The position numbers and the translations under genes are program-made. 64,000 nt of DNA from Deltaproteobacteria bacterium (GTDB taxonomy: Bacteria; Bdellovibrionota; JACOXK01). Below, one piece after another: positions 11,379 to 57,505 of the stretch; position 1 is the first letter of the stretch, and every line of letters starts with the position of its first letter. Under the pieces are notes generated by a model. It was given only the letters and a program-made list of their open reading frames with translations. It did no database searches and was not told where the DNA came from. The stretch covers positions 19,417 to 83,416 of the forward strand of contig JACPKQ010000020.1 of NCBI GenBank assembly GCA_016186995.1, in the 5' to 3' direction.

Positions 11379-11651
11379 AACCCTATATAGTATGCAAACA
11401 TGTGTTGGCAAGGGACTTTCTTCAAGGGGCCCCTCTTCGCTGTCTAATTCTCCCAATCCCTCACCAGGTTTCACGACTTGAGTCAATACGGTAGAAAGCA
11501 TACCCCTTACGGGATGCTGAGATGTGCTAAAATCGACAAATTGCGTCACATCCATGTAAACCAGATTAACAGAGATTCTTTATAAATAACTGAATTTACT
11601 CATATTTTATTTATTAAATTATGGCATGTGTTTTGCTATTTGTACTATGAT

Positions 11652-23128: not shown

Positions 23129-23803
23129 TTACTGTTCAAGGAACTGCTGCTTGAGAACCGTAATGGATTTAGCCTTTGTTTTAATAAAACCCTTCTTTTT
23201 CCAGTCAGAAAAAACCCTAATAACTGTTTCTGGACGGGCTCCAATAAGAGAGGCGATTTCTTCTCTTGAAAGCAACAATTGTTGCTCACAATTTATATTT
23301 CTAAAAATCATTTTCAAAAAATGGGCTAAACGCTGCTCAACCGTTTTATCAGCTAGGTCAGTAAATTTCTCCTCAGCCTGTCTTAATTCAACGCACACCA
23401 TTTTTAGAAACTCAAACCCTAGGTTTGGGTATTCTTTAAAAACCTTTTCAATTCCCTCTTTTTTAACAAAACAAAGTGTTGTTTCACTCACAGCCTGAGC
23501 CGAAGCTTGATATTTTTCACCGGAAAAAAAAGATCTATACCCAAGCATTTCACTCCCTTGCGAAAGAAGAAGAATTTGTTCTTTTCCACTTTCGGTTGTT
23601 TTAATAACTTTGACAACACCAGAAAACGTACAGTAAAAACCTTGAGGTGTTTCTCCTTGTCGAAAAATATAATCCCCCTTTTTATAGGTTTGGGTTGATT
23701 TGTATTGATTAAGGGTTTTCAGTTCAAGTTCTTTTAAAGAACAAAAAAGCCCGTACAGCCTAGGAAGACAATCATTACAATCGATCATATTTTTTGTTTC
23801 CAC
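23129..23803 (-). CDS. CRP/FNR-family regulator with FNR-like cysteines (paralogue 1)
   Basis: A 224-residue regulator, taken from the GTG at 23803; this gives exactly the length of the paralogue at 54609-55283, which also starts at GTG within the same VETKNMIDC context. The cyclic-nucleotide-type fold contains KGDYIFRQGE and SGVVKVIK; the C-terminal winged helix has SREEIASLIGARPETVIRVF. Cysteines 9, 12 and 21 (C-X2-C-X8-C) plus Cys111 could bind an O2-sensitive Fe-S cluster as in FNR. In the recognition helix E-T-V-I-R replaces FNR E-T-I-S-R, keeping Glu and Arg but not Ser. It stands divergent to the nrf genes and is a good candidate for controlling them. TTG 23854 is an alternative start. 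Confidence 0.9.
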   Translation of the reverse strand: METKNMIDCNDCLPRLYGLFCSLKELELKTLNQYKSTQTYKKGDYIFRQGETPQGFYCTFSGVVKVIKTTESGKEQILLLSQGSEMLGYRSFFSGEKYQASAQAVSETTLCFVKKEGIEKVFKEYPNLGFEFLKMVCVELRQAEEKFTDLADKTVEQRLAHFLKMIFRNINCEQQLLLSREEIASLIGARPETVIRVFSDWKKKGFIKTKAKSITVLKQQFLEQ

Positions 23804-23856
23804 TAGAGCGGATATATCATGAGCACAAAGATTCTGTTCAAAAAAACACTCCAAAC

Positions 23857-44200: not shown

Positions 44201-44844
44201 ATTTCTGGAAAAGCTGTGGGTAAATCACAATACCAATCATAGAAACTTAAATTCACCCCTCCAAAAAGTTGTAAAAACCGTGAGCCTGCTGCATAAGAAA
44301 GCATAGACATCGCAGGAATGGGTGAAAAACCGATAACCCGATCTGGACCGTATTTTTTAGCCGTGTAAAGATTGGCAACTGCCATAAGCTCCAAAACTTC
44401 ATCCCAACTAGCTCTTCGAAATCCACCACAACCTCGAGCTTTCTGATATTTTTTTCTTTTTTCTGAATTATTCTGAAGATTTTCCCACGCTTGATAGGGA
44501 TCACCGCCTGCCTTTTCTTTTTCTTCTCGAAAAGCATCAATCAAAGCGCCACGTACCAGTGGGTATTTAATTCTTAAAGGACTGTAGAGATACCAAGAAA
44601 ATGAAATCCCTCTTTGACATCCGCGAGGTTCATAGGGAGGAAGAGAATCTTCAAGCAAAGGATAATCGAGTTGTTGTGTTTCCCACACAACAATGCCGTC
44701 TTTCACATGAATTTGCCAAGAACACCCCCCTGTACAATTAACACCGTGCGTACTCCGTACCACTCGATCATGTTGAAAACGATTTCTATAAAATTCTTCC
44801 CACTTTCTTGTTTGGGGTGAAATAATATCTTTAATCCAGCTCAT
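41227..44844 (-). CDS. narG: NarG, molybdenum catalytic subunit of nitrate reductase
   Basis: A 1205-residue NarG. The N terminus has the FS0 ligands [11 protein letters not shown] (His plus cysteines) and [11 protein letters not shown], as in E. coli NarG. The region [20 protein letters not shown] holds the Asp expected to bind molybdenum, and [14 protein letters not shown] follows. The C terminus has the MopB dinucleotide-binding domain ([19 protein letters not shown]). No Tat motif, consistent with a cytosolic enzyme. It reduces nitrate to nitrite with bis-MGD. GGAGG precedes the ATG at 44844. It follows narC and precedes narH by 5 bases. Confidence 0.97.
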
Positions 44845-44864
44845 TCTAACCTCCACAAAGATCG

Positions 44865-45674
44865 TTACTCAGATTTTATCTGACGATCATATATTTCTTG
44901 ATTCACTGAAACTTTCTTTCTTCGATACCCATAAAGAGCAATGAAGATAAAAAATAATGTTGCTCCAAAAACACCACTTAAAAGCAAACCCAAACCGTAA
45001 TCTTTTGGCTTTTGATACATGTGCTGTTGATCCGCTGATTGCAAAAAGGCCACAAGTGTTCGAACCTCATCATCTTCTAAAGGTTTATCTTTATAAGCTT
45101 GTTGCATGACAGGGAAAGGAGGCCCTCCTAAAATAATCCGAACACCCTCTCCGCCTAATCTTGAAAAAACAGTTGTCAGATCTTTGGCTAAAATCCCCCC
45201 ACCGATAATGGCATCATTTTTGACATGGTGACAGGCAATGCAAGATGGCCCTCCATGAGCAAACCTTATTTTTCCTTGGAAAAAATCCGCACCTGTCTGT
45301 ATGTCTTCATCACTAAGATTCCCGCCTTCACGGGGATCTATTTCTTCACCCTCTGATGCAGCTCGCAAACTTAAAATTCCCTCAATTATTTTTTTTACCT
45401 CTGTTTCAGAAAGTGTTGGGTGTGGGGGCATCGGCATATCTCCCCACTTACCGCTTGAACCTTCTCTTACAGATTGAATGAGAGATTTTATATTATTGGA
45501 ATTCAATTCATATTTATCCGCCATTTCCTTAAAAGACGGACCTATTAATTTTTGATTTTCCTTGTGACAGGCTAAACAATCTGACTTTTGCATAAGCACT
45601 TCGGCTTGATCAAAACCGCCTGCATTAAGAACACTCAAAAAGAAAAAAAACAAACTAAAATAAAGAGGCTTCAT
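44865..45674 (-). CDS. narC: NarC-like membrane-anchored diheme cytochrome c
   Basis: A 269-residue protein with a signal peptide, two CXXCH heme sites (CLACH near residue 35; CIACH near 145) and a C-terminal membrane helix (about 235-255, [20 protein letters not shown]). Methionine ligands may come from [12 protein letters not shown] and [10 protein letters not shown] diheme c-type cytochrome as first gene of a nar operon is the layout of Thermus thermophilus narC, which is needed for assembly and electron flow of the Nar complex. A short palindromic repeat (45317-45338, residues DPREGGN) is inserted in frame between the two heme domains. AGGAGA precedes the ATG. Confidence 0.87.
45317..45338. 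repeat. Dispersed palindromic element inside narC
   Basis: GATTCCCGCCTTCACGGGG followed by ATC, translated in frame in the linker between the two cytochrome domains. Confidence 0.65.
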
Positions 45675-45718
45675 ATACTTTTCTCCTGCTTTCTCTCATT
45701 AAATGCAACGCGTCTCAG

Positions 45719-45759
45719 AATATATAGAAATCTAAAGCGAAAAAAATGACCTAAATCAT
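45719..45759 (-). promoter_or_regulatory. FNR-type box and -10 element of the nar operon
   Basis: On the minus strand the palindrome ATGATTTAGGTCAT (45759-45746) is centred 33.5 bases before the end of a TATATT -10 hexamer (45724-45719). The predicted start is near 45712, about 38 bases ahead of narC. This is class II FNR geometry. The box also faces the EamA gene on the other strand. Confidence 0.78.
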
Positions 45760-45787
45760 ATTTTCTCATTTTGATATATTTGAGTGA

Positions 45788-46726
45788 ATGTGTTTGAATG
45801 GGAAAGCCGTGTTTCAAAAAAAAATCTTTCTTGTTTTTGCCACACTTTTCTGGGGAGGCACTTTTATTGCGGGAAAATTTGCTGTTCAAGACATGCATGC
45901 ATTTCAAATTGCTTTTTATAGATTTGCTCTTGCAAGCCTTTGCTTTTTACCTTTTCTCATACGAGAAATACGAAAAACTCCTTTTAATTTAAAATTACAC
46001 TTAGGTTATTTCGTTTTGGGCTTTCTAGCTATTTTTAGTTATCATTATCTTTTTTTCTATTCTCTTACCCTCACCTCCGCTATCTCTGCTGCCTTTATCG
46101 TAGCTTTAAATCCTATTATAACAACTCTACTTTCCTCTCTTTTTTTTCGAGATGAAAGTTTGAATTATTTTAAGCTGAGTGGTGCCACTATCGCTTTTTT
46201 AGGAGTTCTTTTTGTCATCACATCTGGGAACCTAAATCTTATGACTCATCACTCCCTAAATTATGGAGATATTCTCATGTTTCTTGCAGTTTTTTGTTGG
46301 TCGGCCTCCATTCTTTTAAGCAGGCGTCTCATGAGAAATTCAAAGGCACTTCCTCTTACCTGTTTTTCAACTTTCTATGGCGCCCTCATTCACCTTCCAT
46401 TTCTTTATTGGAAGGGTTTTTTAGGTACTTTTCCGCAAGCCTCCCTTCTTACCTGGGGCTCTGTCATCTACATGGCCATTTTTTCAACGGCTATTGCTTA
46501 CATTTTTTATTACGAAAGCATCCAAAAATTAGGGGCTTCTTTCACAGCTCTCATGCTTAACCTTATTCCTATATGGGCTCTTTTTTTCGCTGTACTTATT
46601 TTAGGAGAATCTCTTACAGTGGAAAAAGTTGTAGGAGTCGTTTTGGTATTGAGTGGTATTAGTTTTATTAATTTGAAATCAAGGTCATCACTGAGGAATG
46701 ACATTCCTTGTCATTCTGAGGAGTGA
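45788..46726 (+). CDS. EamA/DMT-family transporter
   Basis: A 312-residue protein with ten membrane helices in two EamA halves; the first opens with FATLFWGGTFIAGKFAVQ and the second with DILMFLAVFCWSASILLSRR, ending SFTALMLNLIPIWALFFA. It is a drug/metabolite exporter-type carrier, substrate unknown. The C-terminal RSSLRNDIPCHSEE is encoded by a palindromic repeat (46685-46727), so the natural stop has been replaced. It is divergent from the nar operon. An alternative start is a GTG seven codons in, preceded by GGGAAA. Confidence 0.85.
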   Translation: MCLNGKAVFQKKIFLVFATLFWGGTFIAGKFAVQDMHAFQIAFYRFALASLCFLPFLIREIRKTPFNLKLHLGYFVLGFLAIFSYHYLFFYSLTLTSAISAAFIVALNPIITTLLSSLFFRDESLNYFKLSGATIAFLGVLFVITSGNLNLMTHHSLNYGDILMFLAVFCWSASILLSRRLMRNSKALPLTCFSTFYGALIHLPFLYWKGFLGTFPQASLLTWGSVIYMAIFSTAIAYIFYYESIQKLGASFTALMLNLIPIWALFFAVLILGESLTVEKVVGVVLVLSGISFINLKSRSSLRNDIPCHSEE

Positions 46727-46727
46727 C
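46685..46727. repeat. Dispersed palindromic element at EamA gene end
   Basis: GTCATCACTGAGGAATGACA followed by TTCCTTGTCATTCTGAGGAG and TGAC contains repeated TGAGGA-TGAC units in both directions. It encodes the last residues of the transporter. A further 134-base gap holds GGTGACAGAATTCGAATCCA (repeat tag) and the inverted repeat at 46814. Confidence 0.65.
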
Positions 46728-46813
46728 AAAATCACGACGAAGAATATACTTCTGATAGGAGTGCGTTCAGGGTGACAGAATTCGAATCCATGAGCGAGTT
46801 TAAATTCGTGTTC

Positions 46814-46846
46814 ATGTGAAGATGGGCTGGAGGTTTTGAAGGGGAG
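46814..46846 (+). repeat. 33-bp inverted repeat, left copy, flanking the lipid operon
   Basis: ATGTGAAGATGGGCTGGAGG followed by TTTTGAAGGGGAG. The reverse complement occurs at 54507-54539 with one mismatch in 33. The two copies bracket the six-gene operon 46861-54392 exactly; the left one ends 14 bases before the first ATG. Confidence 0.85.
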
Positions 46847-46860
46847 CCAAGGTTGTTTTT

Positions 46861-48495
46861 ATGAAATACTTAGAAAAATGGTGGGGTTGGGGGGAGCTTG
46901 ATAAAGTTTATCCCAAAGACTTAACCTCTCACATCCACAATATTCTTAAAGAAAGATTTCATTTAAGCTCTCATCATTCAGCCATCCCTCAAGAAGAAAA
47001 AATTGAACTACCCACATCTCGTTTATCCACCACAGATTTTGAAGATTTAAAAAATATATCTTCTTCTGCAACTGAAGATCATAAAACACGTCTTTGCCAC
47101 AGCCTGGGTAAAAGTTACATCGATCTTATTGAGGCTCGAAAATTAAAAAGATTTTATGCTCCTGATGCGGTGGTCTTTCCAACATCCGTTGAAGAAATTG
47201 TGCACGTTCTTCAATTTTGCAAAACAAGAAAAATCAGTCTTGTTCCTTTCGGTGGGGGATCCAGTGTGCTTGGCGGTGTTTCTCCAGAAAAAAAAGAAGA
47301 TCATCAAGCTGTCATCACCTTAAACCTTCAAAAAATGAAACAAATATTCGAAATCAACCCCCTATCAAATACTGTTCACACACAAACAGGTATTTTAGGT
47401 CCAGCTTTAGAAAAAGAGCTTAACCAAAAAGGATTTACACTGGGACACTTTCCACAATCATTTGAGTTTTCAAGTGTGGGTGGTTGGATTGCAACACGAA
47501 GTGCAGGACAAAACTCCACATTTTATGGAAAAATTGAAGATATGGTTGTGGCTCTTAAGATACTCACTCCTCAAGGCCTCATTCAAACAAAAACTGTTCC
47601 TGCTTCAAGTTGTGGACCTAGTTTTAAAGATTTTTTTATCGGAAGTGAGGGGTGTTTTGGTATTATTGTCGAAGCTACTTTAAAAATACATCCTTTGCCT
47701 CAACACAAGACTTATCAAAGTTTTTTATTTCCAGATTTTTTGCAAGGCATTCGAGCACTCAGCCACATAAAAAAGCTAAACCTTTCTCCTTCTTTAGTCC
47801 GCCTCTCGGATGCAAAAGAAACTGAGTTTCTTTTTAAAATGGAATCTTTAAAAAAAGATTTTTTTCATCTTTTCCAAAAAAAGTTTTTTTCATTCCTTCT
47901 GAAAAAAAAGAAAATAAACTTGGGCCGAGCCTCACTTCTTCTTATTGGTTTAGAAGGTTCTCATAAAGAAATTCGATATCTTAAAAAACAACTTAAAATG
48001 TTAGCGAAAAACACTCTTTCTTTAGGAAGTCGCCCTGGGTGGAAGTGGCACAAGTCACGCTTTGAACTTCCTTACTTAAGGGATGCCCTTATAGATCAAG
48101 GCGTTATGATTGAGACCTTTGAAACAGCCACTGAGTGGCACAATATCGAAAATCTCTACCGCAAAGTTTATGATACAACTCACACTATTTTAGGCCCAAA
48201 AGCACTTGTTTTTTGCCATATTTCTCATATTTATCTGACAGGAGCTTCTCTTTATTTTACTTTCCTTACACAAGCGAAAAACGACCCCATTCTCCAATGG
48301 CATCAAGTTAAAGAAAGGGTCACAAAAACTCTTCTTCAAGAAGGAGGTACTCTTTCTCATCATCATGGCATAGGCCGTGATCATAAAAAGTTTCTCATTG
48401 AAGAACACGGCCCTTTATTTGTTGAAACGTTGAAAGAGGTGAAACATTTTTTAGATCCACAGCATATTCTAAACCCAGGAAAGCTTATTGAATGA
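46861..48495 (+). CDS. Alkyl-DHAP-synthase-like FAD-linked oxidase/transferase
   Basis: A 544-residue flavoprotein of the VAO/FAD-binding type 4 family. It begins with WWGWGE as does AGPS (alkyldihydroxyacetonephosphate synthase). FAD contacts are VPFGGGSSVLGG (128-139) and SFEFSSVGGWIATRSAGQNS (200-219). A YLRD block, ETFETATEW, Tyr465 in GASLYFTF (AGPS catalytic Tyr position) and SHHHGIG (499-505) all match AGPS rather than glycolate or D-lactate oxidase. AGPS swaps the acyl chain of acyl-DHAP for a fatty alcohol, forming the ether bond. It overlaps the GlpD-like gene by 4 bases. Ether-lipid synthesis is inferred; other type 4 oxidases share parts of this pattern. Confidence 0.8.
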   Translation: MKYLEKWWGWGELDKVYPKDLTSHIHNILKERFHLSSHHSAIPQEEKIELPTSRLSTTDFEDLKNISSSATEDHKTRLCHSLGKSYIDLIEARKLKRFYAPDAVVFPTSVEEIVHVLQFCKTRKISLVPFGGGSSVLGGVSPEKKEDHQAVITLNLQKMKQIFEINPLSNTVHTQTGILGPALEKELNQKGFTLGHFPQSFEFSSVGGWIATRSAGQNSTFYGKIEDMVVALKILTPQGLIQTKTVPASSCGPSFKDFFIGSEGCFGIIVEATLKIHPLPQHKTYQSFLFPDFLQGIRALSHIKKLNLSPSLVRLSDAKETEFLFKMESLKKDFFHLFQKKFFSFLLKKKKINLGRASLLLIGLEGSHKEIRYLKKQLKMLAKNTLSLGSRPGWKWHKSRFELPYLRDALIDQGVMIETFETATEWHNIENLYRKVYDTTHTILGPKALVFCHISHIYLTGASLYFTFLTQAKNDPILQWHQVKERVTKTLLQEGGTLSHHHGIGRDHKKFLIEEHGPLFVETLKEVKHFLDPQHILNPGKLIE

Positions 48496-50060
48496 ACTTG
48501 AGTAAACTTACATCAACCGAATTTGATCTACTCATCATTGGGGGAGGTATTACAGGCTGTGGTATTGCTAGAGATGCTGCTCTACGAGGCCTCAAGGTAG
48601 CACTCATTGAAAAAGGAGATTTCGCAAGTGGAACGAGCTCTCATTCTTCTAAACTTCTCCATGGAGGGTTTCGCTATTTAGAAAGGGGGCAATTAAACCT
48701 TGTTTTCGAAGCACTTCATGAAAGAAATCTGATTCACAAGCAACTTTCTTATTTAGCTACCCCACTTCCTTTTTTGATTCCTATCTACAAAACAAGCCGA
48801 ATCAGTCTCACAAAACTCATACTAGGCGCATGGCTTTATGATGGACTTTCTTTTTTGAGACAACCCCATATGCACAAAACCCTTTTCCCAAAAAGAATTT
48901 TCAAAGAAGAACCCCTCCTTAAAAAAGAAAACCTCAAAGGAGGAGTTCTTTTTTATGATTATTTTACAAACGATGCTCGCCTCACCCTTGAAATTGCAAA
49001 ATCGGCACTTCAAGAAGGAGCTCTTCTTTTCAACTACGTTACATTCGATTCTTTTAAAAAAGAGAATCAGAAGATCGTCGCTGCTTATGCTCATGATAAT
49101 TTTACACATGAAAAAAAGGTCATCAAAGCAAAACACTTTATTAACAGCACCGGTCCTTGGGCTGATATCACTCAAAAGTACGCCAATCCACACAGCTCTC
49201 CACTTTTAAGACCTACGAAAGGAGTGCATCTCATTTTTTCGAGAGAAAAACTAAAAACCAAACATACAATAACCATGGAAACAGAAAACGGACGTTTTAT
49301 TTATCTCATTCCTTGGGGAGAGTATAATATTTTAGGTACGACAGACACAGATTATCAAGATTCAGCCGACGATGTTTATGCTACGCGAAAAGATGTTGAG
49401 TCCCTTCTTAAAACCCTTAAAACTTATTTTCCAACATGCCTTATCAAAGATAGTGACATCATCAGTACCTATGCCGGTGTCAGGCCTTTGTTATATGAAA
49501 ACTCTTTAACAGAAAGCGAAACTTCAAGAGAACATCGCATTATCAAAGATCCTTCTGGACTCATCAGTATTGTCGGTGGAAAACTCACCACCTATCGAAA
49601 AATGGCAGAAGAACTTGTGGATCTTCTGACAGACAAACCTTGCCTTACTCATCAAAGACCTTTTGAAAATCAAGTTATCACTCAAACAACTTTACCCCCT
49701 TCTTATACATTCCTTGTTGAAAGATATGGCCCTCACAATGCACATTCTATTATGAAACTTATCCATAAAAATCCCTCACTTAAGGAAACTCTTTATGAAA
49801 ACCCTCTCATTTTAAAAGCAGAAATGGACTACACTATTCGATATGAAATGGTAAAAACTCTTTGCGATTTTCTTTTAAGAAGAACCTCGATTTTTTTAAC
49901 AACCCAAGATCAAGGTTTGAAAGTAGCACAAAAAATAGCCCCTTATATGGGCGCACTTCTAGAATGGGATGAGGCAAGAATACAAAAAGAAATAGAAACA
50001 CTCCAACATAAAATTTCCCTTTCTAAAAGATTTCTTTCTGGTAAAGGTGAAAATCAATGA
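48492..50060 (+). CDS. glpD: GlpD-like FAD-dependent glycerol-3-phosphate dehydrogenase
   Basis: A 522-residue flavoprotein: LIIGGGITGCGIARDAALRG (FAD fold), FASGTSSHSSKLLHGGFRYLE (GlpD signature), FTNDARLTLEIAKSA, WGEYNILGTTDTDYQ and SIVGGKLTTYRKMAEE. It oxidises sn-glycerol-3-phosphate to DHAP, giving electrons to the quinone pool at the membrane. Lying between an AGPS-like and an SDR gene, it may supply DHAP or act on an alkyl-glycerol-3-phosphate, rather than serve glycerol catabolism (no glpK or glpF nearby). ATGA overlaps bind it to both neighbours. Confidence 0.9.
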   Translation: MNLSKLTSTEFDLLIIGGGITGCGIARDAALRGLKVALIEKGDFASGTSSHSSKLLHGGFRYLERGQLNLVFEALHERNLIHKQLSYLATPLPFLIPIYKTSRISLTKLILGAWLYDGLSFLRQPHMHKTLFPKRIFKEEPLLKKENLKGGVLFYDYFTNDARLTLEIAKSALQEGALLFNYVTFDSFKKENQKIVAAYAHDNFTHEKKVIKAKHFINSTGPWADITQKYANPHSSPLLRPTKGVHLIFSREKLKTKHTITMETENGRFIYLIPWGEYNILGTTDTDYQDSADDVYATRKDVESLLKTLKTYFPTCLIKDSDIISTYAGVRPLLYENSLTESETSREHRIIKDPSGLISIVGGKLTTYRKMAEELVDLLTDKPCLTHQRPFENQVITQTTLPPSYTFLVERYGPHNAHSIMKLIHKNPSLKETLYENPLILKAEMDYTIRYEMVKTLCDFLLRRTSIFLTTQDQGLKVAQKIAPYMGALLEWDEARIQKEIETLQHKISLSKRFLSGKGENQ

Positions 50061-51127
50061 CTCTCAATGAACACTCAAATGTTTTAATCACAGGGTTTCC
50101 AGGATTTATTGGGAAGTTCTTAACAAGAGAGCTTGTTAAAACTCACCCCCATTTAAAACTGTGGCTTCTCACTCATCCTACAATGCACGAACAAGCACAA
50201 AAAACATTTCAAGAATTAAAACTGAACCCTCAAACACACCACATCGTTTTCGGAGACATTACAAAACCTCAGCTTGGTTTAGAAGGAGACACGTTAGAAA
50301 ATATTCAAAAAAACACCCATATCGTTTTTCATCTTGCTGCCATCTATGACCTCACTGTTCCAGAAAAAAAAGCTCACCATGTTAATGTGTTTGGCACACA
50401 AAACATGCTTGATTTTTTTTCACACTCTCCTTCACTCATAAGATTTAATTATATTTCTACGTGCTACGTATCGGGCTCGGTGAAAGGCATCATAACACCC
50501 GATAAACTTCAGCAAAATCAATCATTTCATAATTTTTATGAATCCACAAAACACGCTGCCGAAGTCTTGGTAAAAAATAAAATAAATGATTTACCGATCA
50601 CTATTTTCAGGCCTGCCATTGTTGTAGGGCACTCTCAAACAGGCGAAACCGAAAAGTTTGATGGCCCTTATGTAGTCATGAAGTTTCTCCACAGAATAAA
50701 ATTCCTCTTAAGATTAGTTCCTAATTTGGGCTATGATTATTGCGAAGTGAATACCGTGCCCGTTGATTATTTAGTGAAGGTTCTTGTTTATTTAGGTTTT
50801 AATGAAAAAGCTAAAGCGAAAACTTATCAAATCTGTGATGAAACGCCCCCTACAACGGAAGAATTCTTTGAAGAAATTGTCACAATAATAGGGCATGTTA
50901 AACCTTATCATTGCAGATTTCTCAAATACATTATTCTTAAACTTCTTCGCCTCTCGCTTGTTTCAAAAATAACAGGTATAACTCGGGAACATCTAGATTA
51001 TTTTTTACATGAAGGAAGGTATCGTTCTCCAAACTTAAAAAAAGATCTTGAGGGTTCACATATGGAACTCGGCTCTTATAAAAAATTCTATCCAACCCTT
51101 TATCAATATATGAAGGATCACATATGA
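50057..51127 (+). CDS. Extended SDR / fatty-acyl or thioester reductase-like protein
   Basis: A 356-residue NAD(P)-binding protein. TGFPGFIGKFLTRELV (GXXGXXG, residues 12-27), FGDIT, VFHLAAIYDLTVP, NYISTCYVSG and the catalytic YESTK (Tyr161, Lys165) show an extended SDR. The TGFPGFIG start and the TCYVSG block resemble the NAD-binding-4 (male sterility, thioester reductase) group that reduces acyl thioesters to aldehydes or alcohols. With the AGPS-like and alcohol-oxidase-like genes, a fatty-alcohol-forming or alkyl-lipid-reducing role is attractive but unproven. ATGA overlaps on both sides. Confidence 0.78.
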   Translation: MTLNEHSNVLITGFPGFIGKFLTRELVKTHPHLKLWLLTHPTMHEQAQKTFQELKLNPQTHHIVFGDITKPQLGLEGDTLENIQKNTHIVFHLAAIYDLTVPEKKAHHVNVFGTQNMLDFFSHSPSLIRFNYISTCYVSGSVKGIITPDKLQQNQSFHNFYESTKHAAEVLVKNKINDLPITIFRPAIVVGHSQTGETEKFDGPYVVMKFLHRIKFLLRLVPNLGYDYCEVNTVPVDYLVKVLVYLGFNEKAKAKTYQICDETPPTTEEFFEEIVTIIGHVKPYHCRFLKYIILKLLRLSLVSKITGITREHLDYFLHEGRYRSPNLKKDLEGSHMELGSYKKFYPTLYQYMKDHI

Positions 51128-51537
51128 ACCTCAATCTCTTTAGAAAAATGATGCTCTTGTGGAGTGTTTGTTTTTTAATAGCAGGTCTCTTCTTTATCAT
51201 AACCCCACACACAGTCATTGCCCTTCTCAACCACAGTGCCCAACTCTTTCATTTTTCAAAGAGTATTCCTTTTCACGAGGATTACTTATGGCTTTCACTG
51301 GCTGGATCGATGATGATCACTATTTCTTATTTAAGCTATGAGGCTTATAAAAATCCAAAAAACCATCCTGTTATACAGGGGCTTTTAATTTGCAAATTAG
51401 CAAGCTCTTTGCTTTTTATTATTTCTGCATGGAGAACCCAGAATAACACTTATTTGTTGGGAACAGCCGTCGATTTTCCTATTTTTTTAATTATTTTTAT
51501 TTTTTATCTTCAAACCAGGAGGTTGTCCCGGGAATGA
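51124..51537 (+). CDS. Small four-helix membrane protein, unknown
   Basis: A 137-residue protein with four predicted membrane helices (about 10-27, 55-75, 85-102, 112-130) and no recognised motif. The ATG overlaps the SDR stop (ATGA) and has AAGGAT upstream, so it belongs to the operon. The stop lies inside a dispersed palindromic repeat (51525-51559). A role in bringing a membrane lipid substrate to the neighbouring enzymes is a guess. Confidence 0.65.
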   Translation: MNLNLFRKMMLLWSVCFLIAGLFFIITPHTVIALLNHSAQLFHFSKSIPFHEDYLWLSLAGSMMITISYLSYEAYKNPKNHPVIQGLLICKLASSLLFIISAWRTQNNTYLLGTAVDFPIFLIIFIFYLQTRRLSRE

Positions 51538-51559
51538 CAGAGGGGGTTACAGGGATGAC
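51525..51559. repeat. Dispersed repeat between membrane protein and CrtC-like gene
   Basis: GTCCCGGGAATGACAGAGGG followed by GGTTACAGGGATGACA, two ATGAC-type half units. It provides the stop of the upstream gene and lies next to the ribosome site (AAAGG) of the downstream one. Confidence 0.6.
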
Positions 51560-51567
51560 AAAGGCTA

Positions 51568-52497
51568 ATGGATATTAAATTTAAATCTCAATTTCCGTTT
51601 TATGAAGTGTGGTATGGAAAACTCAACATAGACACACAAAGAGCTTTCTGGTTTCGCTACACCCTTCTCCACGGACAACACCAAGAATCAGCACTCTGGG
51701 CTCTTTTTTTTGATCAGGATAAAATTACTTATCAGAAAAAAAGTTTCATATTAGAAAACATCCGTTTATCGTCTGATGAAATTCATCTTCCACAAGGAAA
51801 GCTCACACATTCTTTATGTAAAGGAGAACTTCCTCACATCAAATGGACTCTCAGTTACAAAAATAGAGGTGGTAGTTTTGATCCAATCCCCCCTCTTTTA
51901 AAACTATTACATCTCACACAATCACATACCCATACACCCATGATTGACCTCGAATTTTCAGGAACTATTGAAGTAGAAAATAACATCCACACTTTTCAAA
52001 AGGCTCGTGGCATGATTGGCCACGTATGGGGAAAAAAACAGGCCCATGCCTGGGCATGGGCGCACTGTAATCATTTTAAAGAATCGCAAGATATTATTTT
52101 TGAAGGTTTATCAGGAGAAATTCAGATTTTTAAAAAAACACTCAAACCCCTTACCTCTTTATATTTAAAATGGAATGGAAAAGAATATTATTTCAATACA
52201 CTGATGCATTTATTTAAAACATCTTCCTCCTATGGATACGGCTTTTGGAATTTTACTGCAACACACCCTGAAATCATCTTAGAGGGGAAAATAAAGAGCC
52301 TTCCACAAAATATTGCTCAAGTACAATATACAGACACAGATGGCTCAACTCTCTATTGTTATAATTCAAAAAAAGCTAATCTAGAATTGACTCTTTGCAA
52401 TCGGAAAAACCATCAAAAAATGACACTTCATGCAGAACACACGGCAGCCTTGGAATGGGTCACAAGAACCCCTATGATGGAGCGCTCTCGTTTATGA
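51568..52497 (+). CDS. CrtC/AttH-like (lipocalin-fold) protein, unknown function
   Basis: A 309-residue, strand-rich protein. The stretch RGMIGHVWGKKQAHAWAWAH (W-G followed by W-x-W) resembles the motif of hydroxyneurosporene synthase (CrtC)/AttH and related DUF2804-like proteins, which bind hydrophobic ligands such as carotenoids in a lipocalin-like barrel. No signal peptide is visible. In this operon it could hydrate, isomerise or carry a long-chain lipid. AAAGG precedes the ATG, and the stop overlaps the GMC gene start. Family assignment rests on a short motif only. Confidence 0.55.
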   Translation: MDIKFKSQFPFYEVWYGKLNIDTQRAFWFRYTLLHGQHQESALWALFFDQDKITYQKKSFILENIRLSSDEIHLPQGKLTHSLCKGELPHIKWTLSYKNRGGSFDPIPPLLKLLHLTQSHTHTPMIDLEFSGTIEVENNIHTFQKARGMIGHVWGKKQAHAWAWAHCNHFKESQDIIFEGLSGEIQIFKKTLKPLTSLYLKWNGKEYYFNTLMHLFKTSSSYGYGFWNFTATHPEIILEGKIKSLPQNIAQVQYTDTDGSTLYCYNSKKANLELTLCNRKNHQKMTLHAEHTAALEWVTRTPMMERSRL

Positions 52498-54392
52498 AAA
52501 GACCTCTTTTTTCTTGGACTCATGCCGTTTTAAAAAGTTATGCTGAGCTTCATGCTGAGCCTCATGACTTAAAAGAAACTCTCCACAAAGCACAAGAACA
52601 CATTCAAAACTTACCTTTTAAATACTATTTCTTATCTCAATTTTTCTTTTTTTTTATAGAATTTTTGATTCCTCTTTTTTATGGCGAGTTCGGGCGTTTT
52701 TCAAAATTACCTCGAGGAAAAACGCTTAAAATCATTCAAGCACTGCAACGAACAAAATTTCTTTTTTTGAGACTTTTTTTCTTCCTGTGTAAATCTCCTG
52801 TTTTGTTATCTCTTAAAACACTTAATTCTGAATACCCCTCTGTCATTCCAGCCCCCGATCGCAGTCGAGGGCAGGCTCCGGCTGGAATCCAGAAAAATAA
52901 AAATTCTGGATCCCAGACAATGCTTCGCATTTCTGGGATGACAAAAAAAGACGAAAGAAAAATATATGATTTTTGCGTTATAGGGTCAGGCGCCGGTGGC
53001 GCTGTCGCTGCTAGAGCTCTTCAAGAAAATGGCTTTCACGTTGCTCTTTTAGAAAAGGGTGGTTTTGCAAAAAAAGGGCACGATGAACTTTCCTCTTTTA
53101 CAAAGTATTACCGAGATCAGGGGCTGATGGGTGCGCTCGGAAATACTTTCATTGGTGTTCCTACAGGAGAAGTGGTCGGGGGCACAACCAAAATTAACTC
53201 AGGCACTTGCTTTGAAACTCCACAATCTGTTGTAGAAGAGTGGCGCCATAGACTTCATTTAAATATTTCCTATGAAGAACTATTACCCCATTTTGAAAAG
53301 TTGAGAGATATTTTATCTATTCAAGAAGTTCCTTATGATAAGGTTTCCAACGCAAATAAACTTTTTGCTCACGGTTTGGAAGCTTTAGGTTTTAACAATC
53401 ATTTTCCTCTCAATCGTAATGCAAAAAATTGCGAAGGCTCTGGACGATGTTGCTTCATTTGCCCACAAGATGCCAAACAATCGACAGATATCGCCATGAT
53501 ACCTAAGTTTTTAAAACAAGGAGGCTCTCTTTTTACTCAAACAGAGGTGATAAGCATAAAAGAAAAAAAAGACCATGTTCTTTTAGTTTGCAAAAATCAT
53601 TTGGGGGAAAAAATTCTTTTCTCCTGTCAAAAACTTATTATTTCTGGGGGTGCACTCTCCTCACCTACCCTTATAAGAAAAAATAAATTAGGTTCTGAAT
53701 GGAAAAAGGCAGGAAACAAATTAACCGTTCATCCCGCTGCAAAAGTTTTGGCAAAGTTTTCCTCAAATGTTCAAGGATGGCATGGGGTTCCTCAAGCTCT
53801 TGGATTTAAACACCCTCATTTCCCGAGTCTTTCTTTTGAAGGTGTCTTCACCCCCCCTCAATTAGCAGCTATGGTTCTACCCCTTGAAGGAGAAGAGCTT
53901 AATGAATGGCTTAATTCTTATGAAAAAGTAGCTTCATTCGGTGTCATGGTGAAAGATAGCGGTCAAGGAAAGGTAAGAAAATACCCTTGGATCGGATCCT
54001 TTTTAAGCTATCATCTTCACCCTGATGATTTTAAAGCACTTGTAGAAGGAGCGCGATTTATGGGGCTTACGTATTTAGCGGCAGGAGCAGAAAAAATTCT
54101 TCTTCCATTTAATGGAATTAAAAATGAATTTTCTTCTATGGATGAACTGAAAAATTATGATTTCTCTTTGCTTAAACCACGAGGACTTTATTCAATGGGT
54201 TTTCATCCTTTGGGTACATGCGGCATGGGAAGAGTGGTTGATGGGGAGCTTAAACTTTATGGGAGTCATCGAATCTATGTAGCCGATGGATCTGTCGTGC
54301 CCACGTCGTTAGGAGTTAATCCTCAAATCACCATTATGAGCCTTGCATTACGTTTAGCACAAAATCTCGCTGCTTCACAACCTTGCTTCTGA
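52494..54392 (+). CDS. GMC-family oxidoreductase, long-chain alcohol oxidase-like
   Basis: A 632-residue flavoprotein starting at the ATG that overlaps the upstream stop (ATGA). Residues 1-110 form a helical N-terminal domain with a hydrophobic segment, as in long-chain fatty-alcohol oxidases. The FAD fold FCVIGSGAGGAVAARALQEN lies near 165; GGTTKINSGTCFETP, CEGSGRCCFICPQDAKQSTD (typical of the FAO branch) and the GMC end PLGTCGMGRVVDGELKLYG with GVNPQITIM follow. It would oxidise fatty alcohols or sterol-like alcohols. About residues 117-150 are an insert from two palindromic repeats (52842-52943) in the linker between the domains, without loss of frame. Confidence 0.85.
   Translation: MKRPLFSWTHAVLKSYAELHAEPHDLKETLHKAQEHIQNLPFKYYFLSQFFFFFIEFLIPLFYGEFGRFSKLPRGKTLKIIQALQRTKFLFLRLFFFLCKSPVLLSLKTLNSEYPSVIPAPDRSRGQAPAGIQKNKNSGSQTMLRISGMTKKDERKIYDFCVIGSGAGGAVAARALQENGFHVALLEKGGFAKKGHDELSSFTKYYRDQGLMGALGNTFIGVPTGEVVGGTTKINSGTCFETPQSVVEEWRHRLHLNISYEELLPHFEKLRDILSIQEVPYDKVSNANKLFAHGLEALGFNNHFPLNRNAKNCEGSGRCCFICPQDAKQSTDIAMIPKFLKQGGSLFTQTEVISIKEKKDHVLLVCKNHLGEKILFSCQKLIISGGALSSPTLIRKNKLGSEWKKAGNKLTVHPAAKVLAKFSSNVQGWHGVPQALGFKHPHFPSLSFEGVFTPPQLAAMVLPLEGEELNEWLNSYEKVASFGVMVKDSGQGKVRKYPWIGSFLSYHLHPDDFKALVEGARFMGLTYLAAGAEKILLPFNGIKNEFSSMDELKNYDFSLLKPRGLYSMGFHPLGTCGMGRVVDGELKLYGSHRIYVADGSVVPTSLGVNPQITIMSLALRLAQNLAASQPCF
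52842..52943. repeat. Two palindromic elements in frame inside the GMC gene
   Basis: GTCATTCCAGCCCCCGATCG ... GGCTCCGGCTGGAATCC (52842-52890) and CTGGATCCCAGACAATGCTT ... CTGGGATGAC (52906-52943). Together they add about 34 residues (VIPAPDRSRGQAPAGIQ... and SGSQTMLRISGM) to the interdomain linker. Confidence 0.82.
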
Positions 54393-54506
54393 ATTGGGGG
54401 ACTATTTTAGTTCGATACCTTGGTTCTGAGAGGGGAACTCTTTTCCGATACTTAAGTTCTTGATGGCCTGGAGGTCTCTCAGGGGCCCCTCCGCCCAGTG
54501 TGGATC

Positions 54507-54539
54507 CTCCCCTTTAAAACCTCCAGCCCATCTTCACAT
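54507..54539 (-). repeat. 33-bp inverted repeat, right copy, flanking the lipid operon
   Basis: Read on the minus strand it is ATGTGAAGATGGGCTGGAGG followed by TTTTAAAGGGGAG, one mismatch from 46814-46846. The flanks share AATTCG as well. It lies 115 bases after the GMC stop, in a 216-base gap without genes that also holds CATCCCGGGCGAAGCCCCGG (54555-54574). Confidence 0.85.
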
Positions 54540-54554
54540 AGACTCGAATTCTAT

Positions 54555-54581
54555 CATCCCGGGCGAAGCCCCGGGGTACCC
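54555..54581. repeat. Dispersed palindromic element downstream of GMC gene
   Basis: CATCCCGGGCGAAGCCCCGG contains CCCGGGC-GAA-GCCCCGGG. It is a strong hairpin and may end transcription of the operon or of the convergent regulator gene. Confidence 0.6.
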
Positions 54582-54608
54582 GATAACCCAAAAAGTAGAT
54601 TTTTTGGA

Positions 54609-55283
54609 TTATTGTTCTAAGAACTGAGGATTGAGAATAGTAATGGACTTGGCTTTGGTTGCAATAAAGCCTTGCTTTTTCCAATCAGAAAAAACACGAA
54701 TCACTGTTTCTGGACGGGCCCCAATAATAGAGGCTATTTCTTCTCTTGAAAGCGGAAGTTGATTATTGCAATTTACATTTCCAACAATCATTTTTAAAAA
54801 TTGGGCTAACCGCTGTTCAACTGTTTTATCAACAAGATCTGTAAATTTTTCCTCTGATTGTCTTAACTCCTCACACACTTTTTTTAAAAAAACAAAACTT
54901 AACTCTGGAGAAGTTTTAAAAACTTTTTGGACTCCCTCTTTCTTAATAAAACAAAGCGTTGTTTCACTCACAGCCTGTGCCGAAGCATGATATTTTTCAT
55001 TTGAAAAAAAAGATCGATACCCCACCATTTCACTTCCTTGAGAAAGAAGAAGAATCTGTTCTTTACCACTTTCTGTTGTTTTAAAAACCTTAACAACCCC
55101 AGAAAATGTACAATAAAGCCCTTTAGGGTTTTCTCCTTCTCTAAAAATAAAATCCCCTTTTCTGTAAGTTTGGGTGATTTTGTATTGATTGAGGATATCG
55201 AGTTCCTGCTCCTTTAAAGCACAAAAAAGGCCATAGTGCCTGGGAAGGCAATTCTTACAATCAATCATGTTTCTTGTTTCCAC
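54609..55283 (-). CDS. CRP/FNR-family regulator with FNR-like cysteines (paralogue 2)
   Basis: A 224-residue paralogue of the protein at 23129-23803, with most residues identical by eye. The effector domain contains RKGDFIFREGE and SGVVKVFK; the winged helix SREEIASIIGARPETVIRVF is the same. Cysteines 9, 12, 21, 58 and 111 stand at exactly the same places as in paralogue 1, so an Fe-S sensor is likely for both. It starts at a GTG because an upstream in-frame TAG excludes a longer start. It is not adjacent to a respiratory operon. The two identical recognition helices predict the same DNA site, hence redundancy or competition. Confidence 0.88.
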   Translation of the reverse strand: METRNMIDCKNCLPRHYGLFCALKEQELDILNQYKITQTYRKGDFIFREGENPKGLYCTFSGVVKVFKTTESGKEQILLLSQGSEMVGYRSFFSNEKYHASAQAVSETTLCFIKKEGVQKVFKTSPELSFVFLKKVCEELRQSEEKFTDLVDKTVEQRLAQFLKMIVGNVNCNNQLPLSREEIASIIGARPETVIRVFSDWKKQGFIATKAKSITILNPQFLEQ

Positions 55284-55428
55284 AAAAGCATTTATACCAC
55301 TCCACCCTTTCTTCTACAATAAGGCTACCTATCGTCGAATTGAATCATAAGAAAAGGTCATAAATATGCTCTTTAATAACCCATTGTTATTACTTATGTT
55401 TTTTAAAAAATAATCTTAGATTTAAAAA

Positions 55429-55668
55429 ATGGAATTGAAAACTCCATTTTTTAATGTAAAATGGAAGATTGAAATAAAAAGAAAATCTAGAATTCAATCT
55501 CAGGATGTCTCTTCACTTAATCTTTTTTCTAAAGACTATCCTATGGCTAAAAAAATGATCGTTTATGGTGGAGAGAAAAAGATGAGTTTCAAAAATGATA
55601 TTGCAATTATTCCTATTCATGATTTTTTGACAGAACTTCCTCATATTTTAGAAAACAAAACCCCGTAA
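55429..55668 (+). pseudogene. C-terminal remnant of a DUF4143-type AAA ATPase
   Basis: A 79-codon frame encodes EIKRKSRIQSQDVSSLNLFS, then AKKMIVYGGEKKM and IAIIPIHDFLTELPHIL. This matches the C-terminal nuclease-like end of DUF4143 (ATP-binding, AAA_14) proteins, which normally have about 400 residues. The ATPase domain is absent upstream, and the frame has no ribosome site. It lies directly before the Fic gene, so it is probably debris of an accessory or toxin-type locus. Confidence 0.7.
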
Positions 55669-55747
55669 AAATTCAGCCTTTAATGTGAAGGGTTTCTCGA
55701 ATGGATTTATATAATTTTTACTTGTAGTTTTTCATTGTTTGTTTTTT

Positions 55748-55776
55748 TTGACTTCGTTTTTTTAATCTTATATAAT
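55748..55776 (+). promoter_or_regulatory. Strong sigma70-type promoter of the Fic gene with tandem repeat
   Basis: TTGACT (55748-55753), a 17-base spacer and a perfect TATAAT (55771-55776). The decamer AATCTTATAT is repeated in tandem across the -10 (about 55764-55783), a possible operator for the winged helix at the C terminus of the Fic protein. Confidence 0.8.
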
Positions 55777-55805
55777 CTTATATAGTTAAATTATAAGGTC
55801 ATTTT

Positions 55806-56867
55806 ATGAAAGAAAAGAGTAAATTTGATAAGCGATTAGAGAACCTGCCATCTCACATATGGTCAAAGATTGCCCAAATTGAGCAACTCAAGGGGCAATG
55901 GATAGCTGGGGCGCAATTAAATCCACAAGTTTTGGGCCGTCTTAAAAAGTCTGTCTTGGTGACTTCAACGGGCGCTTCGACCCGCATAGAAGGGGCAAGA
56001 CTTTCTGATGAAGATATTGAAAAAATGATGCGCGGTATTTCTATGCAAAAGTTTACAGATCGAGATCAACAAGAAGTTAAGGGGTATTATGAGCTTCTTC
56101 AAAATGTGTTTAATTCTTGGAAAACAATTGATTTTTCTGAAAACTCTATCAAGCATTTTCATCAAGAACTTTTAAAACACGTTCAAAAAGATGAATCTCA
56201 TCGGGGAGAGTATAAAAAAAGAGAAAATAAAGTTCATATGATTGATGAAGTGGAAAAGTCTATTGGCGTTTTGTTTGATACAACCTCTGCTTATCTTACC
56301 CCCAAAGAAATGCAAGAATTGGTAGAATGGGCTCAGAATTCATTTAAGGAAAAGAAGCATCATGTTTTACTTGTCATCGGAAATTTTCTTGTAGAGTTTT
56401 TGAAGATCCATCCTTTTCAAGATGGAAATGGGCGTTTATCTCGAATTATCACAAATTTTCTTTTACTTAAAGCGGGGTATTTATATGTGCCTTATATTTC
56501 TCATGAAAAATTGGTTGAAGATAATAAGCCTGATTATTATCTGGCCTTACGCAATAGCCAAAAAACCTTTAAAAAAGATAAAGAAACCATTATTCCTTGG
56601 TTAGATTTCTTTTTGTCGGTTCTTCTAAAACAATCAGAAATGGCTGTTGAACTATTATCGAAAGAAAATGTTGAAAAGATTTTGTCTGCGAAGCAGCTGG
56701 CTGTATGGCAGTATCTTCAAAATGTTGATGAAGCATCCCCAGGAGAAATTTCCAAAAAAACAAAAGTGGCCCGGCCTACCATCAACCAAGTTCTTGATAA
56801 ATTGTTGCGTCTTAAAAAAATTGAGCGCATAGGCTTAGGCCGAAGTACGAGATATAGAAAATTGTAA
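55806..56867 (+). CDS. Fic-family AMPylase-like protein with C-terminal winged helix
   Basis: A 353-residue Fic protein. The N-terminal domain holds the inhibitory motif ASTRIEG (Ser58, Glu62, Gly63; class II), which blocks ATP binding until released. The Fic core has HPFQDGNGRLSR (His202 to Arg210), complete for nucleotide transfer to a protein hydroxyl. The C terminus (about 290-353) is a winged-helix domain (EISKKTKVARPTINQVLDKL) that could bind DNA at its own promoter. AAGG precedes the ATG. A 74-bp piece of a second copy survives at 13101-13174. Target protein unknown. Confidence 0.92.
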   Translation: MKEKSKFDKRLENLPSHIWSKIAQIEQLKGQWIAGAQLNPQVLGRLKKSVLVTSTGASTRIEGARLSDEDIEKMMRGISMQKFTDRDQQEVKGYYELLQNVFNSWKTIDFSENSIKHFHQELLKHVQKDESHRGEYKKRENKVHMIDEVEKSIGVLFDTTSAYLTPKEMQELVEWAQNSFKEKKHHVLLVIGNFLVEFLKIHPFQDGNGRLSRIITNFLLLKAGYLYVPYISHEKLVEDNKPDYYLALRNSQKTFKKDKETIIPWLDFFLSVLLKQSEMAVELLSKENVEKILSAKQLAVWQYLQNVDEASPGEISKKTKVARPTINQVLDKLLRLKKIERIGLGRSTRYRKL

Positions 56868-56871
56868 TTAG

Positions 56872-56934
56872 GGCGTGTTCGGAGATCGTCATCCTGAGCA
56901 CGAAGTGCGAAGGATGACGATCTCCGAACATGCT
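56872..56934. repeat. Long hairpin downstream of the Fic gene
   Basis: TGTTCGGAGATCGTCATCCT (56876-56895) and its exact reverse complement (56911-56930) extend with wobble pairs to about 24 bp; the loop can also pair GCAC-GAA-GTGC. It belongs to the ATCCT..AGGATGAC repeat family and probably also stops transcription. Confidence 0.88.
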
Positions 56935-56940
56935 CTAAAT

Positions 56941-56954
56941 ATGACCTTTGTCAT
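56941..56954 (+). promoter_or_regulatory. FNR-type palindrome upstream of small membrane-protein gene
   Basis: ATGACCTTTGTCAT has perfect ATGAC/GTCAT arms. It is centred about 64 bases before the predicted start of the 57013 gene, a class I position rather than the class II spacing seen at the nar and nrf promoters. Confidence 0.45.
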
Positions 56955-56975
56955 AAAATGAAATAGGTTCTTAGA

Positions 56976-57005
56976 TTGACACAAACAATAAGTACATCTT
57001 ACAAT
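56976..57005 (+). promoter_or_regulatory. Promoter overlapping the gene start at 57013 (possible leaderless message)
   Basis: TTGACA (56976-56981), an 18-base spacer and TACAAT (57000-57005). The expected transcript start near 57012 would coincide with the ATG at 57013. Confidence 0.55.
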
Positions 57006-57012
57006 GAAGCAG

Positions 57013-57492
57013 ATGACCTATACTAAGTTTGATCTTAAATACGACGACTTAAACCCATTAGAAAAAGCAGTTGTCAGGCATGCACATCCTAAAGCCTTTA
57101 TTCTTCATCTGATTGGCCTTATATGGAGTGGTTATTTTTTGTGGACTCATAATCTTCTTCTAGCCATTTTTTGCTTTGGTGGCATTACAGGGGTAGGACA
57201 ATTCTTAGGCTATTGTGATAAAAACTACCTGAAGTGTGCACAATCAAAACTGAATCTTTTTCAAAAAATGCTTGTTTATCATGCCAATTATAAAAACCTC
57301 ATTTATCATATTGTTGGCTTTGCCTTTTTTGTATGGGGTGCTTACGAAAATTCTTTTCTAAAACTTCTTATTGCTCTTTCTTTTGTTCTCTTAGGCCACA
57401 TGTTTGCATGGCATAGACATCATTGTGAAACAATCCAACATGAGTGTGCCATTGAAGAAAACGATTCTCCTCATTCAGAACCAAGGTTGTAA
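57013..57492 (+). CDS. Histidine-rich small membrane protein, unknown
   Basis: A 159-residue protein with about three to four membrane helices in pairs (ILHLIGLIWSGYFLWTH and LIYHIVGFAFFVWGAYE, then LLIALSFVLLGHMFAW). The two halves look like an internal duplication (H..HPKAFILHLIGLIWSGY and YHANYKNLIYHIVGFAFFVWG). The C-terminal HRHHCETIQHEC is rich in His and Cys and might bind metal. No family is recognised with confidence. The ATG at 57013 is chosen because the promoter -10 box covers the ATG at 57004. An FNR-type palindrome lies upstream. Confidence 0.6.
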   Translation: MTYTKFDLKYDDLNPLEKAVVRHAHPKAFILHLIGLIWSGYFLWTHNLLLAIFCFGGITGVGQFLGYCDKNYLKCAQSKLNLFQKMLVYHANYKNLIYHIVGFAFFVWGAYENSFLKLLIALSFVLLGHMFAWHRHHCETIQHECAIEENDSPHSEPRL

Positions 57493-57505
57493 TGATGCCA
57501 TTCAG

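Follow-up and report, generated by a model that had tools for sequence, protein, structure and literature searches.

An AGPS-GlpD gene pair joined to a second, separable module in a six-gene operon of a Bdellovibrio relative, with a possible role in ether-lipid synthesis

The window analysed here (the whole stretch of 64,000 nucleotides) comes from a small nitrate-respiring relative of Bdellovibrio, and carries a six-gene operon which, as judged from its sequence and from gene order in relatives, combines two older, separable modules in a single transcription unit. Module 1 encodes an AGPS-family flavoprotein and a GlpD; module 2 encodes an extended SDR, a small membrane protein, an AttH/CrtC-like protein and a GMC flavoprotein. 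An evenly balanced case can be made that the joined modules carry out alkyl-DHAP chemistry for ether-lipid synthesis, with the SDR supplying the fatty alcohol. The sequence-only reading had proposed an ether-lipid/fatty-alcohol operon; its AGPS, GlpD and SDR families stand, but the idea of a single dedicated pathway is not supported, since the modules are separate in relatives.

All six genes lie on the forward strand where they had first been placed and, as claimed, mostly overlap by ATGA: four of the five junctions, read directly from the sequence, are 4-base ATGA overlaps (at 48492, 50057, 51124 and 52494), and the fifth is a 30-base gap between the small membrane protein gene and the CrtC-like gene. 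A dispersed intergenic repeat flanks the operon as two copies in opposite orientations, one just upstream of the AGPS gene (46803–46846, forward strand) and one just downstream of the GMC gene (54507–54550, reverse strand). A gene for a CRP/FNR-family regulator, identified by family search (54609–55283, reverse strand), is convergent to the operon and may be linked to it; its homologue lies close to AGPS in the class-mate genome G004, and in G001 and G003 it is close to CrtC-like genes. Control of the operon through FNR boxes was rejected: scanning the window for TTGAT-N4-ATCAA found 10 sites with no more than one mismatch, within the range of shuffled sequences (3–12), and none upstream of AGPS. 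Promoter and terminator counts were also at chance level.

By score, residues and phylogeny, the first gene product (544 aa; 46861–48495) is a true AGPS family member. It contains both the FAD_binding_4 and FAD-oxidase_C domains, and its closest solved relatives, over most of its length, are Dictyostelium and mammalian AGPS (PDB 2uuu, E 1.8e-96; 4bby, E 1.9e-79), the match to D-lactate dehydrogenase (D-LDH) being far weaker (E 3.4e-35). In the residue table, R314, R407, Y465 and H500–502 correspond to R419, R515, Y578 and H615–617 of the guinea-pig enzyme, all lacking in the D-LDH rows; the altered PDB chains 4bc7 (R419H) and 4bca (Y578F) mark two of these key residues. The WWGWGE start, Tyr465 and SHHHG from which the sequence-only reading had called the protein AGPS-like were all found, and in the phylogeny against D-lactate and glycolate dehydrogenases that it had suggested, the protein falls with both eukaryotic AGPSs inside a 23-row AGPS clade (100/99), apart from 11 D-LDH-like proteins that form a clade of their own (100/100); branching order inside the AGPS clade carries no resolution, and M. 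xanthus AGPS was left out of this tree. A glycolate or lactate oxidase identity, the outcome that would have refuted the sequence-only reading, was thus rejected, with scores, residues and tree all against it. The likeness to eukaryotic AGPS extends to near whole-length homology, both domains and all the key residues, but the sequences are distant, and here there is no peroxisome and the gene for the putative enzyme sits in a bacterial operon with GlpD.

These residues are by themselves no proof of ether-lipid synthesis, and count somewhat against that reading, because dioxane and PEG degraders have plasmid-borne AGPS-family genes whose products share the key R, Y and HHH. AGPS-like genes occur on plasmids of X. 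dioxanivorans, S. macrogoltabida and M. dioxanotrophicus, and also adjoin genes for FGGY kinase or PdxA2/four-carbon kinase; this would fit an enzyme whose substrate is a small ether or resembles a sugar phosphate, with no part in membrane lipids. We regard such a role as distinctly improbable for the protein studied here, given that in the tree the xenobiotic/polyol relatives either group in their own 100/100 clade or sit on long, outlying branches, that it retains R515, which the Xanthobacter, Sphingopyxis and Moraxella proteins lack (residue table), and that nearer relatives have a lipid-kinase context.

The second gene product (522 aa; 48492–50060), described beforehand as GlpD-like, is by motif a canonical GlpD of the FAD glycerol-3-phosphate dehydrogenase/oxidase type, with DAO and DAO_C domains, the HGGxRYL, GxRPL and GGKLTTYR motifs and a match to 3da1 (E 9.8e-92); the genome has a second glpD paralogue besides this gene. 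In six Bdellovibrionota genomes (G000, G001, G003, G004, G125 and G209), the AGPS and GlpD genes are at most 4 bases apart, and a YegS/DAGK lipid kinase often accompanies them, adjoining the pair in G125 and G209. Class-mates have either a long AGPS with GlpD or a short AGPS with GlpA/GlpB and the kinase, and none has both, which suggests that the two sets replace each other. Module 2 stands 10 kb from AGPS-GlpD in G004, and occurs in G002 and G005 without a long AGPS, a point against the synthesis reading. Of 290 sampled genomes of the phylum, this was the only one in which all six genes were seen fused into one unit. Because relatives keep AGPS-GlpD apart from the SDR, membrane protein, CrtC-like and GMC genes, we rejected an ancient standing for the six-gene unit. 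The earlier statement that no operon with this exact set had been described agrees with our findings; the AGPS-GlpD pairing itself is widespread.

The pairing extends to actinomycetes, in which a glpD1-TetR-flavoprotein-lipid kinase set (Rv2249c–Rv2252; L092, L093), whose order is found on actinomycete plasmids, likewise places GlpD beside an AGPS-family gene, and the lipid kinase also joins AGPS-GlpD in other Bdellovibrionota. The actinomycete genes are however divergent, with the TetR gene in between, whereas those studied here are co-directional, overlap by ATGA and include no kinase. In BCG, Rv2249c, Rv2250c, Rv2251 and Rv2252 change together by 2.1–2.3 (PMC4564863).

In module 2, the SDR (356 aa; 50057–51127) is nearest to fatty-acyl/thioester-reductase types, in line with its first description as thioester-reductase-like, and is a candidate fatty acyl or aldehyde reductase: its NAD_binding_4 score passes the Pfam gathering score (159.5 versus 20.1 bits), while its NCBIfam scores, including that for PRK07201, are below the cut-offs (209 versus 549 and 106.7 versus 213). 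The small membrane protein (137 aa, 4–5 helices; 51124–51537; model pLDDT 91.7) has no Pfam or NCBIfam match and is a conserved partner of the CrtC-like protein (alignment A1). Its model best matched tetraspanin-like bundles (Z about 10.8, rmsd 4–5, 114–123 aligned) and EBP (Z 8.8); an identity based on fold was rejected, as such Z values are too low to be meaningful for a helical bundle. The next product (309 aa; 51568–52497), earlier called CrtC/AttH-like, indeed belongs to the Tocopherol_cycl family (PF14249, 3.3e-12), and its model, a two-domain beta protein (pLDDT 94.2), has a predicted AttH/CrtC fold (AttH, 2ich: Z 24.3, rmsd 3.0, 262 aligned). The catalytic motif of the carotenoid 1,2-hydratase CrtC is HxW followed about 27 residues on by YxD (PMC4717167); H152-x-W154 is present here, but the family does not conserve this W, and inspection by eye of alignment A2, which has no CrtC row, showed no YxD at the expected distance. 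No CrtC-like protein was found on plasmids.

The GMC reading frame was called as 665 aa from TTG 52395, but ATG 52494 is the likelier start (632 aa; 52494–54392). It equals two genes of class-mates, an N part of ~110–150 aa and a GMC of ~470 aa, split from each other in L032, L072 and L073; here the N part (~52494–52840) and the GMC domains (~52936–54392) are joined in one frame by an inserted dispersed repeat (about 52841–52943, no strand assigned) with partial copies elsewhere in the genome. GMC_oxred_N and GMC_oxred_C are both present, as expected of the long-chain-alcohol-oxidase-like GMC first proposed, yet by sequence the protein bears only a distant resemblance to any solved structure and is inseparable from cholesterol-oxidase-type GMCs with the libraries used, in which we saw no characterised FAO (nearest named model, cholesterol oxidase, 56 bits of the 850 needed). 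Module 2 could be a sterol, hopanoid or isoprenoid module, unrelated to AGPS and only co-transcribed with it, with a 3-beta-HSD-like SDR (3Beta_HSD, 8.3e-15), a cholesterol-oxidase-like GMC and an AttH-fold lyase or hydratase, that fold including the 25-phosphosteroid lyase of anaerobic steroid degradation (Z 19.9). This seems rather unlikely: the 3Beta_HSD score (55 bits) is far below those for NAD_binding_4 and PRK07201, the likeness of the GMC to cholesterol oxidases does not extend beyond a C-terminal stretch of 57 residues, and AttH and [4+2] cyclases are better fold matches than the lyase.

For ether-lipid synthesis, we infer the substrates, the direction of flux, the acyl-DHAP source and every product as follows. 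GlpD would oxidise glycerol-3-phosphate (G3P) to DHAP, passing electrons to the quinone pool, and the AGPS-family flavoenzyme would, via an FAD N5 adduct, replace the acyl group of acyl-DHAP with a long-chain alcohol; the product, alkyl-DHAP, is the precursor from which ether phospholipids are made. Module 2 would handle a hydrophobic alcohol or aldehyde, most simply with the SDR making the fatty alcohol and the GMC removing its excess or acting on a related lipid. Acyl-DHAP may come from a PlsB-like acyltransferase encoded 30 kb away (17111–18745). The scores, kept residues and tree position of the AGPS-family protein, the recurrence of AGPS-GlpD, the actinomycete set, the co-change in BCG, reductase-type SDR genes adjoining AGPS in G252 and G264, and the Myxococcus xanthus operon MXAN_1676-1675-1674 (AGPS; FAR1+GNPAT; SDR) argue for synthesis. 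The latter is similarly short, with AGPS beside reductase/SDR genes, but has FAR and DHAP acyltransferase domains and lacks GlpD, AttH-like and GMC genes; AGPS there accounts for a minor share of ether-lipid synthesis, its loss lowering ether lipids only slightly (PMC9131029). The myxobacterial elb operon, also proposed to make ether lipids and also containing extended SDRs, differs in its multidomain enzyme ElbD and in having no AGPS or GlpD (PMC9131029); the ORF list for 44000–57500 holds no ElbD-like multidomain ORF. AGPS homologues are reported in many bacterial phyla (PMC11868695). Our literature searches found nothing on point about ether lipids in Bdellovibrionota, the function of Rv2251 or a GMC/CrtC operon, and almost no genetics of bacterial AGPS beyond Myxococcus.

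Several observations count against synthesis. The operon has no dedicated DHAP acyltransferase (absences in this genome rest on single family searches), the PlsB-like gene adjoins GpsA and looks like one for ordinary G3P acylation, a GMC oxidising an alcohol would counter ether formation from that alcohol, the loss of AGPS in M. xanthus has only the slight effect given above, and the second GlpD and five acyl-CoA dehydrogenases of the genome are compatible with catabolism. Ether cleavage is kept in view because of the alcohol-oxidase-like GMC gene, the second glpD copy and the lack of a dedicated DHAP acyltransferase. In such a breakdown, alkyl-G3P formed by the lipid kinase would be oxidised by GlpD to alkyl-DHAP, reversed AGPS would convert this with a fatty acid or water to acyl-DHAP or DHAP plus fatty alcohol, GMC and SDR would oxidise the alcohol, and the operon GlpD would feed the quinone pool and nitrate respiration. 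The five dehydrogenases, the lipid kinase as usual AGPS-GlpD neighbour, the divergent arrangement in G209 of AGPS-GlpD-kinase and cyt c-narG, which resembles that of the window, and the glycerol genes close to AGPS-family members in L003 and L101 are in its favour. Nevertheless we find it unlikely: all AGPS enzymes known to us serve synthesis, the motifs of GlpD are the ordinary G3P ones, the lipid kinase lies outside the operon beside aspS-hisS-like genes, and no enzyme here is known to act on alkyl-G3P. More speculative, and very unlikely, is that AGPS-GlpD, with or without the kinase, serves respiratory ether-lipid cleavage or remodelling from Bdellovibrionota to Mycobacterium, GlpD paralogues oxidising alkyl-G3P straight to alkyl-DHAP, AGPS running in reverse and, here, GMC/SDR oxidising the freed fatty alcohol, for which nitrate would be the terminal acceptor.

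Whichever the direction, the AGPS-GlpD-lipid kinase neighbourhood, including M. tuberculosis Rv2249c–Rv2252, offers a small, testable gene set for the role of bacterial AGPS, and may tell whether GlpD supplies the ether-lipid branch or draws from it.

The ORF calls and family searches bear out the sequence-only description of six genes at window positions 46861-54392, encoding an AGPS-family flavoprotein, a GlpD, an SDR, a membrane protein (MEM), a CrtC/AttH-like protein and a GMC protein. Read directly, four of the junctions are ATGA overlaps (48492, 50057, 51124 and 52494), and 30 bases intervene ahead of 51568, which makes a single transcription unit likely; the GMC frame should start at ATG 52494 instead of TTG 52395. 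The operon is bracketed exactly by inverted copies of a dispersed repeat (46803-46846 and 54507-54550; 91% over 44 bases) that has about 20 matches genome-wide, and through a second repeat (52841-52943) the N part of the GMC protein is joined, in frame, with its GMC domain. Either repeat may have helped assemble the six-gene arrangement, and the repeat evidence examined gave no sign of mobility of the unit. The repeat within the GMC gene is one of several short palindromic repeats of the VIPAxAGIQ / RGVEDDVAIL type that occur in frame within or at the ends of genes, including the ends of the ORFs at 27455, 28554, 29072 and 31789.

The solved structures nearest to the flavoprotein are Dictyostelium AGPS (1.8e-96) and mammalian AGPS (1.9e-79), D-lactate dehydrogenase (D-LDH) ranking behind (3.4e-35). 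R314 and Y465 are identical to the aligned R419 and Y578 (guinea-pig numbering), at which PDB chains 4bc7 and 4bca, respectively, depart from wild type in the printed alignments; R407 (R515) and H500-502 (H615-617) are also kept. These key residues are absent from 11 D-LDH-like proteins of the phylum. In a maximum likelihood tree of 45 proteins, the window protein groups with three class-mates (support 100/97) inside the AGPS clade (23 rows, 100/99, both eukaryotic AGPSs included). The D-LDH set is separate (100/100), and branching order within the AGPS clade is not resolved. One clade with 100/100 support consists of proteins encoded on plasmids, among them those from Xanthobacter dioxanivorans, Sphingopyxis macrogoltabida and Mycobacterium dioxanotrophicus; because R419, Y578 and HHH are common to these as well, the signature is a marker of the family and no indicator of substrate. 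In loci L097 and L098, plasmid AGPS-family genes of dioxane/PEG degraders adjoin glutathione S-transferase and AMP-ligase genes, and their products are possibly an ether-cleaving branch of the family.

AGPS and GlpD genes lie at most 4 bases apart in class-mates G000, G001, G003 and G004, and equally in G125 and G209, from another family, where a YegS/DAGK-type lipid kinase joins them; G233 has an AGPS-kinase arrangement. Streptomyces fungicidicus and Tsukamurella show the order glpD, TetR, AGPS, lipid kinase, and the same gene set is carried by BCG, in which Rv2249c (glpD1), Rv2250c, Rv2251 (flavoprotein) and Rv2252 (diacylglycerol kinase) change similarly in expression (PMC4564863). In several Bdellovibrionota families (L138-L141, L148, L149), GlpD is replaced, a short AGPS-like gene being followed by Fe-S (GlcF-like) and DAGK-family kinase genes.

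The organism, which we infer to belong to Bdellovibrionota, comes from a small, uncultured class with eight genomes in the comparison set, its own being a 1.68-Mb draft in 30 contigs. Four of the eight carry the long AGPS with GlpD, whereas in the other four an AGPS-like protein of 460 residues is encoded within reach of a lipid kinase and a GlpB-like gene, GlpA also being near in three of them. Both sets together were found in none of the eight, four of which are <90% complete. The short AGPS-like gene adjoins aspS-hisS-like genes in G002, which lacks the long AGPS; in the window's genome, the lipid kinase is immediately next to such genes, and an AGPS-like gene is absent at this site. The simplest reading of these gene contents, from eight genomes of which half are so incomplete, is that one AGPS set replaced the other.

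The window also contains narGHJ-type genes, an nrfHA-like pair, a second molybdoenzyme cluster and molybdenum cofactor genes with a Mo/W riboswitch, so that the organism likely respires nitrate. In G209, a member of a distant family (L135, 4312-13001), a cytochrome c gene and narG point away from AGPS-GlpD-lipid kinase, as at window 41227-50060, a shared divergent arrangement from which a link between AGPS-GlpD and nitrate respiration is possible. Close CRP/FNR-family paralogues lie beside the nrfHA-like genes (23129-23854) and convergent with the operon (54609-55283).

The remaining four genes behave as a separate module. AGPS-GlpD and SDR-MEM-CrtC-N part-GMC are 10 kb apart in G004, with the molybdenum cofactor genes between them; in G002 and G005, MEM-CrtC-N part-GMC is present and the SDR is at another place. 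The MEM-CrtC pairing is widespread across the phylum, frequently without GMC, and in many family f8 genomes (L084-L091) such a GMC-less pair is near secretion-type (CpaF-like ATPase) and metK-like genes. Of 290 genomes, 47 have CrtC-like matches and 22 have AGPS-family matches, with 17 having both (Fisher p 3e-11; 10/14 outside the class, p 7e-7); the p-values take no account of shared descent and include short forms of AGPS as well as two CrtC matches that are weak. The CrtC-like protein model (pLDDT 94.2) matches AttH (Z 24.3, rmsd 3.0, 262 aligned), [4+2] cyclases (Z 23-24), kievitone hydratase (21.9) and 25-phosphosteroid lyase (19.9), which suggests hydrophobic substrates and gives a predicted fold, not a reaction. 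A second lipid-looking cluster (8414-11555) encodes classical SDR, acetoacetate-decarboxylase-like and FAD amine-oxidase-like proteins.

AGPS catalysis proceeds by a known FAD mechanism, by which the window enzyme would convert acyl-DHAP and a fatty alcohol to alkyl-DHAP; GlpD, which retains its standard motifs, would be linked both with this backbone and with quinone, and the fatty alcohol would come from the SDR. None of the genome's four PF01553 acyltransferases could be singled out as a dedicated DHAP acyltransferase: one is PlsC-sized (250 residues), one has about 300 residues, one is fused with an MFS transporter, and one, PlsB-like, adjoins GpsA (17111-18745). The genome also encodes five acyl-CoA dehydrogenases. 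The same chemistry may possibly run in reverse, given the GMC gene, an extra GlpD copy (contig C25, 47% identical) and beta-oxidation-type genes. Alkyl-DHAP synthesis is favoured by AGPS-SDR neighbourhoods elsewhere, a reductase-type SDR coming after AGPS in G252 and G264 and an SDR being included in the AGPS neighbourhood of M. xanthus (PMC9131029), and is, as judged from gene content, the most likely reading of the operon.
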